Shown here piece after piece: positions 30,399-64,000 of a stretch of 64,000 bases of DNA (positions are counted from its first letter, which is position 1; each line of letters begins with the position of its first letter). Below the pieces are notes generated by a model that worked only from the letters and a program-made list of their open reading frames with translations, had not been told where the DNA came from and did no database searches. Where the stretch lies: assembly GCA_009840355.1 (NCBI GenBank), contig VXNZ01000039.1, forward strand, positions 1 through 64,000. The letters run 5' to 3'. Made by a program: the position numbers and the translations under genes. Source of the stretch: Chloroflexota bacterium. Its GTDB lineage: Bacteria > Chloroflexota > Dehalococcoidia > Lucifugimonadales > JADFKI01.

Positions 30399-30439
30399 TC
30401 GCGTGACTTGATATGTACCTTAATATAAGCTGAATATCT

Positions 30440-30614
30440 AACGCGCAGGTTTACGGGGAAGGGGGTGTGAATCCCCCACGGACGCGCCACTGTGAGCGGG
30501 TAGCGTTGCGGCATTTGCCACTGGTCTAGCCGATGCACCATATCGATGCACGGACGACTGGGAAGGCGCCGCAACCGCGACGATTCGCGAGTCAGGATAC
30601 CTATCCCGCGCGTT
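30440..30614 (+). promoter_or_regulatory. Cobalamin (B12) riboswitch upstream of cobN
   Basis: The ends AACGCGC (30440-30446) and GCGCGTT (30608-30614) form P1. Inside are the conserved blocks 'GGGAAGGGGGTGTGAATCCC', 'ACGCGCCACTGTGA', 'GCCACTGGTC' in variant form, 'TGGGAAGGCGCC' and the B12 box variant 'GAGTCAGGATACC' (30589-30601). It senses adenosyl- or other cobalamin and represses the downstream genes. The terminator at 30686 supplies the output. Confidence 0.92.
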
Positions 30615-30637
30615 GGAAGTTGGCTTCTCGTCGGTAG

Positions 30638-58938: not shown

Positions 58939-60102
58939 ATGAAAATTCATGAGTATCAGGCGAAGCAGATATTGAGCAAGTATGGCGTGCCGGTGCCTGA
59001 AGGGAGCGTTGCGTCCACGCCGGAGGAAGCGGCGAATTTGGTCGAAGCGCTCGGCGGCAATGCGGTCGTCAAGGCGCAGGTGCATGCCGGCGGACGCGGT
59101 AAGGCGGGCGGCGTCAAGCTAGTCTCGTCGGCCGCTGAGGCGGCTGAGTTCGCGGCGTCCATCCTCGGCACGAATCTGGTTACATTCCAGACGGGACCGG
59201 AAGGCGTGCCGGTGCGTCAAGTGCTGGTCGAAGAGACGATAGATGTCGCGGACGAGCTTTATCTGGGCGTGGTAATAGACGGCGCGGCAGAGGGCATCGT
59301 CGTCATAGCGAGCGAGGCGGGCGGCATGGAGATAGAAGAGGTCGCAGACGCCACGCCGGAGAAGATCCTGCGTGCGACGATAGACCCCGTGCTTGGGTTT
59401 CAGCCATTCCAAGGCAGAAGTCTCGCCTACGGCTTGAATCTCGACGGCTCGCTGGTGCGCCCGGTCGGCACGCTCATCGAAAATCTGTGCCGCGCGTTTC
59501 AGGAGAACGACTGCTCGCTGGCGGAAATCAACCCGCTGGTCATTACGACGGACGGTCGCGCGCTCGCCGTTGACGCCAAGCTCAATTTCGACGACGACGC
59601 GATGTTCCGCCACAAGGACTTGGACGAGTTCTACGACGCGGAGCAAGAGGACGACGGCGAGGTCGAGGCGCGCAAGTACGACATCAATTATGTGAAGCTG
59701 GACGGTAGCGTGGGCTGTATCGTGAACGGCGCCGGTCTTGCGATGGCGACGATGGATGTGGTGCTGTCCGGCGGCGCGAAGCCGGCGAACTTCCTGGACA
59801 TAGGCGGCGGCGCGGACGAGGACAAGGTCGCGCAGGCGCTCAACATCGTGCTGTCGGATAAATCTGTCGAGCTGGTGCTGGTGAACATATTCGGCGGCAT
59901 ACTGCGCTGCGATGTGGCGGCGCGGGGCTTCCTGCAAGCAGCCGAAGCCGCACCGGACGGCATCCGCCCCATGGTCGTGCGAATGCTAGGCACAAACGCC
60001 AACGAAGGCAGACGCATCCTAGCCGAATCCAGCCTAGACGTAACGCTAGTGGACGACCTAAGCGGCGCGGCAGGAGCAATTAGGGCGGCGGTCGGCGCGT
60101 AG
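58939..60102 (+). CDS. sucC: Succinyl-CoA ligase (ADP-forming) subunit beta
   Basis: The 387-residue ATP-grasp subunit has 'MKIHEYQAKQILSKYGVPVP', 'QVHAGGRGKAGGVKLV', 'EINPLVIT' and the C-terminal CoA-ligase part 'GAGLAMATMDVVLSGGAKPA', 'NIFGGILRCDVAA'. It makes ATP (or GTP) from succinyl-CoA in the TCA cycle together with SucD. Normally sucD follows at once; here sucD starts at 63588, after five other genes. Confidence 0.97.
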   Translation: MKIHEYQAKQILSKYGVPVPEGSVASTPEEAANLVEALGGNAVVKAQVHAGGRGKAGGVKLVSSAAEAAEFAASILGTNLVTFQTGPEGVPVRQVLVEETIDVADELYLGVVIDGAAEGIVVIASEAGGMEIEEVADATPEKILRATIDPVLGFQPFQGRSLAYGLNLDGSLVRPVGTLIENLCRAFQENDCSLAEINPLVITTDGRALAVDAKLNFDDDAMFRHKDLDEFYDAEQEDDGEVEARKYDINYVKLDGSVGCIVNGAGLAMATMDVVLSGGAKPANFLDIGGGADEDKVAQALNIVLSDKSVELVLVNIFGGILRCDVAARGFLQAAEAAPDGIRPMVVRMLGTNANEGRRILAESSLDVTLVDDLSGAAGAIRAAVGA

Positions 60103-60586: not shown

Positions 60587-60625
60587 TATGGTGCTAACAA
60601 GCAGTTGCCCAAAAGGAGGCATACC

Positions 60626-62266
60626 ATGGACCTACTCGAAGTTCTTAATCCCATCGGGCAGCAGCGAGGTCTGATAAACTCGCTGACCATCAGCCCACGT
60701 CCGGACACGCTGGACAACAAGACCGTCGGGCTGCTCTGGTCCGGCACGCACGGAGGCGACCTCGCGCTCAATCGCGCCGGCGAGATGCTGCAAGAGCGCT
60801 TCAGCAATGTCAAGGTCAACTTCTACACGGGCGGCAACTATCCCGCGCCGCCGCCTATCGTGCAGCAAGCCGCCGCGGAGTGCGATGTCGTCATCGGCGC
60901 CACAGCCGATTGAGGGACGTGCGCGTCGTGGATGGTCCACGACATGATCGAGATTGAGAAGACGGGCAAACCCGCCATCCCAATCGTATCCGGGCGCTTT
61001 GAAGAAGACGCTATCGCAAGTTCGCGCGCGTTCGCAATGCCGGACCTGCAGTTTGTCATCGTGCCGCGCATCTATCGCAACCTCGCGCCAGAGCTGTGCG
61101 TCAGCCAGACCGAAGCGGTTATAGACGAAATCGTCGAAGTTCTCACCATCGACAAAGAGCACGGACGCCGCGAGCGCGACACCGCGACCGCCGTCGAACG
61201 ATTCGAGGGCGAAGACCGCTGGGACGCCATCCTGAAGATGAACGAGCAGTGGCTGATGCGCGACTGGGGCGACGCGATGGTTTTGCATCCTCCCACTGAG
61301 GAAGCCGTCGCCGCGCTTGTCGAAGGCACGGGACTCGACCGCTACGACTTGGTGTGCGACATGCCGCCCGGATTCGGGCTGGCGACTGTGGAGAAGATCG
61401 CCATCAACGCGGCTATGGCAGGCGCGAAGCCTGAACATATGCCGGTCATCATCGCGGCGGTCAAGGCGCTGTCGGAAGTAGGCGAACACGGCGGCAAATC
61501 GCTGCTGATGTCCACCAGCCCGCACGCGCCAATGCTGGTGGTCAACGGGCCCATCGCCAAGGAACTGGGGATTAACCCGCGCTCCGGGCTTGGTCCGGGC
61601 CGCGACAACGAGGTGAACATCACCATCGGGCGCGCGTTCTCGCTGTGCCTGCGCAATCTGGGCTACTGGTATCCGGGTCAGATGGACATGGACACCATCG
61701 GCACCACGCGCAAGTTCGTGCACTGCATCGCGGAGAACGAAGAGATGAGCCCTTGGCAGCCGTTCCATGTCGATCAGGGCTTCCGCGCGGACGAAAGCGC
61801 GGTCAGCGTGTTCATCACGGACGGCGAGCTGGATGTGCAGGACCAGGGTAATACCGACGCCGACGATCTGCTCAAGACCATCGCCTACGGCAGCACATTC
61901 GGCACTCGCGGCATGGGCGCGCGCCACACCAACGAGCGCCTGATATTCATGCCGCCGGATGTCGCGCGACCGGTCGGCGGTGAAGGCTTTTCCAAGCAAG
62001 AGGCGAAGCAGTTCATTCACTACAACGCGAACATGAGCCTTGGCAAGATGATGCACTACATGCCGATCGACGACGCGCGCGTTGGTCAGCAGTGGCAATG
62101 GCTGAAAGACAAGACCGAGCAAGAGCGGCTGGACATCGAAGTGTCGCTGCTGGAGAGCGTTGACCGCTGGTTCATCGTAGTTGTCGGCGCGGACCGCGCC
62201 AAGACGCTAGTGATGCCCACCGGCGAAGGCGCATCCACGGTAGGCATTGACCAGTATATGCCGTAA
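60626..62266 (+). CDS. UGSC-family selenoprotein candidate (in-frame TGA as selenocysteine)
   Basis: Two consecutive open stretches in one frame are separated only by TGA 60911-60913. Read through, they give 546 residues with selenocysteine 96 in the motif U-G-T-C (96-99), preceded by 'CDVVIGATAD' and followed by 'ASWMVHDMIEIEKTGKPAI', as in UGSC-type (seleno)proteins. The C-terminal part ('PPGFGLATVEKIAINAAMAG', 'VNGPIAKELGIN', 'ENEEMSPWQPFHVDQGF') is found in the long members of that family. The U/Cys pair suggests thiol redox chemistry; the substrate is unknown. ATG 60626 is chosen because AAAAGGAGG lies 6 nt upstream. Confidence 0.85.
60925..60943 (+). promoter_or_regulatory. SECIS-like hairpin
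   Basis: GTCGTGGA (60925-60932) pairs perfectly with TCCACGAC (60936-60943) around the triloop TGG. It begins 11 nt after the TGA codon, and its apical loop lies about 20 nt from it. A short stem with a G in a 3-nt apical loop at this distance is what bacterial SelB requires. Confidence 0.7.
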
Positions 62267-63148: not shown

Positions 63149-63583
63149 ATGCCGGAAGAAGTCTTCATTGACGCAAGTTTTGGGATAGCACTATCATATT
63201 TGAGGGACCGATGGCACCAGAGTGCCAAGCTGCTATGGACTATGGCTGAGGAGAATGATTGGCGACTTGTAACCACCAACTGGACACTCTACGAAGCTTT
63301 GACCGCTTTAAGCGGCAGCTTTGGCAGGCATGACCTCGATGCTGCGCTTTATGAAATGGTCATTGACTCTGCTATCTTGGTCTTCGATGCTTCCAGCCTT
63401 GAAGAGGAGGCACTTTATGTATTCACGACACATTCCGATAAGCGCTGGAGCGTTGTAGATTGCGCGAATTTCGTTTGTATCAGAGACAGGCAAAGCAAGT
63501 ACGCTTTCGCCTATGACCAAGACTTTAATCAAGCACAGAATGAGTTCGGTTTCACACGGTTGGGACCACAAATTAGAGGCTGA
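63149..63583 (+). CDS. PIN-domain protein (VapC-like)
   Basis: The 144-residue protein has the four acidic residues of PIN nucleases: Asp8 in '[11 protein letters not shown]', Glu49 in '[13 protein letters not shown]', Asp104 in '[10 protein letters not shown]' and Asp123 in '[10 protein letters not shown]'. PIN toxins cleave RNA, often tRNA or rRNA, and are held by a small antitoxin; the protein at 62860 is the candidate. The module sits directly before sucD (4 nt gap), so transcription of sucD may pass through it. Confidence 0.88.
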
Positions 63584-63587
63584 ATCT

Positions 63588-64000
63588 ATGGGAATCCTTG
63601 TTGACGAAAATACGCGCCTTCTCGTGCAGGGCATTACCGGCAGAGAGGGCAGTTTCCACGCGCTGCGCTGCCGCGAGTACGGCGCAAACCTTGTCGCCGG
63701 TGTAACGCCGGGACGCGGCGGGCAGGTCTTCGACGGCGATGTGCCAGTGTTCAACACCGTGCGGCAGGCGGTGGACGATACGCAGGCAAACTGCGCTCTG
63801 ATATTCGTGCCGCCCCCGTTCGCAGCGGACGCCATCGTGGAATCGGTGGATGCGGGCATACCCACTATCGCCTGCATCACTGAGGGCATTCCCATTATGG
63901 ACACCATCGCGGTCAAGCGCTACATCCGCGACAAGCCGGTTCGTCTCATCGGGCCCAACTGCCCGGGAATGATTACGCCCGGCGCGCGCGTGAAGGTCGG
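63588..64000 (+). CDS. sucD: Succinyl-CoA ligase (ADP-forming) subunit alpha, 3' truncated by window end
   Basis: The first 137 codons are present. Clear SucD features: '[19 protein letters not shown]', '[10 protein letters not shown]', '[10 protein letters not shown]', '[10 protein letters not shown]' and '[14 protein letters not shown]' in the CoA-binding Rossmann domain. It pairs with SucC (58939). The active-site His lies beyond the window. The gene continues past 64000. Confidence 0.96.

Follow-up and report, generated by a model that had tools for sequence, protein, structure and literature searches.

A UGSC-family selenoprotein gene with a fused second domain in a Chloroflexota bacterium and its likely distant kinship to the selenocysteine domain of glycine and proline reductase

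In 2008, Zhang and Gladyshev described selenoproteins of the UGSC family from ocean metagenomes (PMC2398784), in which the family is one of the five with the greatest abundance (PMC2398784, Table 2), and proposed a thioredoxin-like fold for them (PMC2398784). A fusion of the UGSC domain with a conserved domain of unknown function, UGSC/Unknown_1, was also reported from these metagenomes (PMC2398784, Figure S1A). A 2026 review places UGSC among the selenoproteins with largely uncharacterised functions (PMC13188914), and homologues in NCBI plasmid records are already annotated as 'UGSC family (seleno)protein'. The second described system that is relevant here is glycine reductase, which receives its electrons from NADPH via thioredoxin reductase and thioredoxin (PMC3091704).

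The gene that we analysed lies in a stretch of 64,000 nucleotides of a Chloroflexota genome (the window) and belongs to this known, functionally uncharacterised family; the kind of fusion that it represents has been known since 2008, and Unknown_1 is likely the C-terminal domain of the window gene. A literature search, conducted with most subscription papers outside its reach, retrieved no description of a link to GrdB, of a flavodoxin-like model or of a thioredoxin reductase neighbourhood. With the connections drawn here to GrdB/PrdB, thioredoxin reductase and a defined partner domain, the 'unknown redox protein' becomes an enzyme hypothesis that can be put to the test. The coordinates of the features are collected in Table 1.

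Table 1. Features of the selenoprotein gene, in positions of the window.
Feature	Positions	Strand	Evidence
Shine-Dalgarno sequence AAGGAGG, 6 nt upstream of the ATG	60613..60619	+	read directly
Selenoprotein gene, complete, 546 residues, Sec at 96	60626..62266	+	read directly; homologues; dN much lower than dS before and after the TGA
UGSC domain, residues 6-174, modelled flavodoxin-like, probably a remote homologue of the Sec domain in GrdB/PrdB	60641..61147	+	Pfam PF24696, AF2, Foldseek, hhalign
TGA codon, Sec 96 (UGTC motif, predicted resolving Cys99)	60911..60913	+	128 Sec and 7 Cys in 143 homologues
Bacterial SECIS hairpin, 8 bp, UGG loop	60925..60943	+	published rules, covariation
Uncharacterised C-terminal domain, residues 186-546; separate adjacent gene in many genomes	61181..62263	+	no family match; AF2; split homologues

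Between the start ATG and the terminal TAA the frame is interrupted only once, by the TGA at residue 96, which is embedded in the residues ADUGTCASW. An earlier note on this DNA had claimed a single frame broken by nothing but this TGA, and re-reading reproduced the frame, the coordinates and the TGA; the UGSC-type motif that it had also claimed held in part, as the family domain is indeed present (Pfam PF24696) but the motif reads UGTC and not UGSC. The gene almost certainly encodes one intact protein with a selenocysteine in its active site. Ordinary gene calling would place the start about 100 residues too late and thereby lose that active site.

A scan of GTDB species genomes recovered at least 549 confirmed relatives. 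The family was found in 43 of 400 Chloroflexota genomes, with one TGA in nearly every UGSC domain found there. The alignment at residue 96, which the earlier note had put forward as a check, comprised 143 homologues covering the position and showed TGA in 128, Cys in 7 and another residue in 8 of them. The Cys forms were retrieved from Actinomycetota (Mycobacteriaceae, Nonomuraea), haloarchaea and a Sphingomonas, and a tree of 67 fused proteins implies at least four transitions into or out of the Cys state, three of which are forced by well-supported branches. The homologue from Natrinema (L213) likewise encodes Cys. The motif itself varies among the homologues (UGSC, UGGC, UGAC, UGTC and USTC); in a Chloroflexota subfamily (L079, L088, L089, L090-L096) USTC replaces UGSC (HUSTCAPAVAVHGM), and a gene for a CxxC thioredoxin reductase often adjoins the members of this subfamily.

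The machinery for selenocysteine insertion was sought in the genome that contains the window (3.28 Mb in 57 contigs, 97% complete). All four components, which the earlier note had stated to be absent from the window, were found outside of it: tRNA-Sec, with anticodon TCA, SelA (531 bits), SelB (342 bits) and SelD (389 bits). The selD gene (C14:129387-130307) contains an in-frame TGA within the motif SCAGUAS, and SelD is itself probably a selenoprotein. SelA was present in 39 of the 42 Chloroflexota genomes having the family versus 24 of the 38 without it. One genome (G344, 98% complete) carries a TGA-containing fused homologue (L076, contig C35), yet neither SelA nor SelB was found there above the cut-off; an assembly gap, a contaminant contig or unusual decoding could each account for this exception.

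The hairpin downstream of the TGA, GUCGUGGA-UGG-UCCACGAC, has a loop of 3 nt with G in second position, a UGA-to-loop distance of 19 nt and a folding energy of -11.1 kcal/mol. The stem and triloop were as the earlier note had described them, and all four published rules for bacterial SECIS elements are obeyed (a loop of 3-9 nt on a stem of 4-16 bp, G among the first two loop positions, a spacing of 16-37 nt and a minimum free energy of at most -7.5; PMC13188914). Of the 23 TGAs in the window that have at least 90 open codons on either side, only the one at residue 96 is followed by a hairpin that conforms to these rules. Taken by itself the hairpin is mildly unusual: 8 out of 8 pairs also arise in 5-8% of synonymous recodings of the same stretch, and the shuffle z-score is -1.5. 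It is the evidence from the homologues, and not the hairpin alone, that settles the Sec reading. Within 112 distinct Sec homologues, the pairing at fixed distance from the TGA averaged 6.33 out of 8, whereas 500 synonymous recoding trials gave 4.63 ± 0.12 pairs with a maximum of 5.01; sliding the 3' arm by 1-4 nt reduced the pairing to 1.8-3.8, and 14 different fully paired 6-bp cores were encountered. Since the observed pairing exceeds the synonymous-recoding null, there is a signal in the RNA beyond the conservation of the protein, and the proposed fit to a bacterial SECIS model is thus borne out both by the rules and by covariation. Cys homologues had been expected to have lost the hairpin; they form on average 5.86 of 8 pairs, compared to a null of 4.79 ± 0.47, in a sample (n = 7) that is too small for a decisive contrast with the Sec forms. 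Raw folding energy did not separate Sec from Cys homologues.

The UGSC domain is full-length (profile positions 2-171 of 172 of PF24696) and scores 104.9 bits against a cut-off of 25, i.e. four times as high. It shares with the described family the UxxC arrangement, the TGA and the bacterial SECIS element, and carries the Sec/Cys-G-x-C pattern as UGTC at residues 96-99; the protein differs from the family in this UGTC and in the extra fused domain of about 370 residues. NCBIfam NF041046 was matched with 97.5 bits, which is below the equivalog cut-off of 125, and the protein is therefore a homologue outside NCBI's equivalog, for which that entry is no basis to assign a function. AF2 modelled the full-length protein (67-row alignment; pLDDT 92.3, pTM 0.93) with the UGSC domain as alternating strands and helices and with Sec96 immediately before helix 97-111. 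Foldseek matched the folds of TIR, flavodoxin and lumazine synthase along segments as long as the domain, and thioredoxins were absent from the top 50 matches. Model and Foldseek search together speak against the thioredoxin fold (mixed sheet, beta-alpha-beta-alpha-beta-beta-alpha). Sequence searches of the PDB, with the single protein and with profiles, returned nothing useful.

Profile comparison connected the UGSC domain to glycine and proline reductase. Alignment of 136 UGSC domains with GrdB proteins by hhalign yielded 97.1% (E 7e-11), and with GrdB plus PrdB-like proteins 93%; after removal of the motif columns 82% remained. The controls remained far lower: at most 4.6% for five unrelated neighbour families and the fumarase family, at most 0.7% for twenty column-shuffled profiles and 0.6% for the reversed profile. 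The Sec positions of the two profiles coincide in the alignment, and the likeness within the Sec domain comprises, in this order, a strand, a UGTC where a helix begins, and a conserved E-xx-G-x-P segment. The protein had no direct match to Pfam PF07355 at E <= 1, the source genome contained no PF07355 genes, and the search of the PDB by sequence found no solved structure for a GrdB relative either. Distant homology between the UGSC domain and the Sec domain of GrdB/PrdB is strongly supported by the profiles; the domain is too remote to be a member of PF07355. A further parallel lies in the supply by thioredoxin reductase and thioredoxin of glycine reductase, which is mirrored by the trxB and trxA neighbours of UGSC loci (see below). 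The partner, in contrast, is a different and uncharacterised domain. GrdB-type activity requires partners, the pyruvoyl proteins GrdE/PrdA, and neither GrdE/GrdA/PrdA-like nor GrdC/D partners were present among the annotated or Pfam-typed neighbours of the loci.

The length of the C-terminal domain had been put at about 440 residues in the earlier note; it is actually about 370, because the UGSC domain ends near residue 175, and 444 is the length of the ORF after an internal ATG. That this domain has no known function agrees with our searches: none of 55 C-domain homologues matched a family in Pfam or NCBIfam, and a profile search of the PDB gave no match. Modelled alone by AF2 it reached a pLDDT of 91.5, and its conserved motifs include MAG-x-x-P, NGPI and AENE. 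Foldseek gave a weak echo of class I fumarase and the Toblerone fold (best E 2.4e-4, probability 0.69). The TM-scores to class I fumarase and cyanuric-acid hydrolase (Toblerone) are about 0.2 at an rmsd of about 19 A, no homology to them is known, the hhalign comparison with the PF05681 profile was negative, and a fumarase/Toblerone origin was rejected.

The organisation of the two domains varies. In the same genome, the UGSC genes at C14:82748 and C4:24845 adjoin separate C-domain genes, one further gene of each kind is solitary (UGSC on C46, the C domain on C19), and the window gene is a fusion. Split pairs were recovered across phyla, including haloarchaeal and Arthrobacter plasmids, and one locus (L199, 7299-9608) has both domains in a single frame in inverted order, the C-terminal domain preceding UGSC. 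Domains that are fused here and encoded by adjacent genes elsewhere form a Rosetta-stone pattern and therefore point to two interacting subunits; that the C-terminal domain would be the partner subunit of the UGSC domain is well supported by these gene arrangements.

We then inspected the genomic neighbours of the loci for recurring functions. Thioredoxin-reductase (TrxB-like) genes all encode a CxxC (12 of 12). Of the 12 loci having such a gene, 10 have it no more than 1.5 kb away, where 33% would be expected (p about 4e-4 if the loci were independent). In Arthrobacter, trxB, trxA, the C domain and UGSC are consecutive, and the Cys form of Mycobacteriaceae adjoins a fused TrxR-Trx gene. For TctC carboxylate-binding proteins, 18 of 23 loci have the gene at no more than 1.5 kb. 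The loci are not mutually independent, so that the p-values of such associations are soft, and TctC genes are plentiful in Betaproteobacteria generally. SBP_bac_5 proteins rank next after TctC in the Pfam tally of neighbours, and genes that recur nearby in small numbers encode: CoA transferases, members of the PEP-mutase/isocitrate-lyase and adenylosuccinate-lyase families, and phosphosulfolactate-synthase-like proteins. Neither trxB nor tctC lies alongside the window gene, the neighbours of which include sucC and a glyoxalase-like gene. The sucC gene (Pfam ATP-grasp_2/CoA-ligase) occupies 58939-60102, a sucD-like ORF, assigned from reading its sequence, 63513-64000, and between the two lie the selenoprotein gene and another three or four genes of small size. 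Elsewhere in the window there is a Cobalamin riboswitch (30431-30622, + strand; Rfam RF00174, 84.6 bits).

Taken together, selenocysteine decoding at the UGA is near-certain, and the protein as a whole is probably a thioredoxin-fed selenoenzyme that resembles glycine/proline reductase and would act on an organic acid. This reading draws on computation throughout, namely on the Sec decoding, the homology to GrdB/PrdB, the modelled fold, the two-subunit logic and the association with thioredoxin reductase and acid uptake. SelB, bound to the hairpin, would bring Sec-tRNA to the UGA 19 nt upstream; in the flavodoxin-like UGSC domain, as modelled, Sec96 would sit at the N-terminus of a helix with Cys99 as the resolving residue, and the C-terminal domain may be a substrate-binding or activating subunit that presents the organic acid. 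The Sec96 selenolate might then attack this acid or join in the reductive cleavage of a carbon-heteroatom bond, upon which a Sec96-Cys99 selenenylsulfide would arise that, by analogy to glycine reductase, could be reduced by thioredoxin and thioredoxin reductase. The selenium-dependent redox enzyme of the earlier note, for which the reaction had been left open, retains its Sec, and the kinship of the domain to GrdB/PrdB, together with the repeated occurrence of thioredoxin reductase next to the system, narrows down what this reaction may be. More tentatively, UGSC and its partner domain could constitute an unrecognised third branch of glycine/proline reductases: widespread, two-component and fed by thioredoxin reductase, reductively cleaving a carbon-heteroatom bond in imported organic acids, where a new fold that activates the substrate would replace the pyruvoyl subunit.

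Several other readings were weighed against this thioredoxin-fed enzyme. The protein might be a general thiol oxidoreductase (a peroxidase or disulfide reductase) with the C-terminal domain as a scaffold, in which case there would be no C-X cleavage and the chemistry would be unlike that of GrdB. Bacterial UxxC selenoproteins are for the most part thiol oxidoreductases, and the association with thioredoxin reductase would fit equally well, as would the guess of 2008 (PMC2398784). We nevertheless judge it rather unlikely in view of the flavodoxin-like model, the lack of any thioredoxin in the Foldseek top 50, the profile link to GrdB/PrdB and neighbours that belong to organic-acid uptake and catabolism rather than to stress responses. 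A non-redox enzyme (e.g. a racemase, isomerase or lyase) that uses Sec as nucleophile or base appears improbable: the conserved second Cys of UxxC and the CxxC reductases nearby imply redox cycling, and the faint structural resemblance of the C-terminal domain to class I fumarase, which would speak for such an enzyme, is unsupported by sequence profiles. The idea derives from flavodoxin-like racemase folds, in which cysteines serve as nucleophile or base, and from the contexts of Cys-dependent racemases and decarboxylases, which the flavodoxin-like fold and the TctC neighbours recall.

Finally, a pseudogene, a sequencing error or two separate genes divided by the TGA, with ATG 60932 as the start of the second, was rejected as having a negligible chance of being correct. 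A 444-codon ORF does start at this ATG, but the ATG runs from the stem into the apical loop of the conserved hairpin; among the homologues, the residue aligned with it is mostly not Met. The TGA is conserved in 128 homologues, including orthologues of 95% and 70% identity, it is the only one of the 23 comparable TGAs in the window to have a rule-conforming hairpin, and the two signs of a pseudogene named in the earlier note, a genome without selenocysteine machinery and homologues without Cys or Sec, were both contradicted by what was found. Selection is purifying and similar on either side of the TGA, and we take this comparison of coding sequences to mean that the gene is not decaying: dN/dS relative to the 95% identical orthologue (L126) was 0.05/0.81 before and 0.03/1.05 after the TGA, and the more distant L127 and L128 gave the same picture, with dS near or at saturation.

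Two observations concern individual relatives. In three loci (L169, L174 and L191) neighbouring fused paralogues are without Sec or Cys at the active position (DNGMG, DSGIG, QLDTC and HMDTL), and these paralogues are possibly inactive or differently acting subunits. The 70% identical orthologue (L127) stems from Candidatus Entotheonella, a member of another phylum, and is nested among Chloroflexota on the tree, where it likely represents a horizontal transfer.
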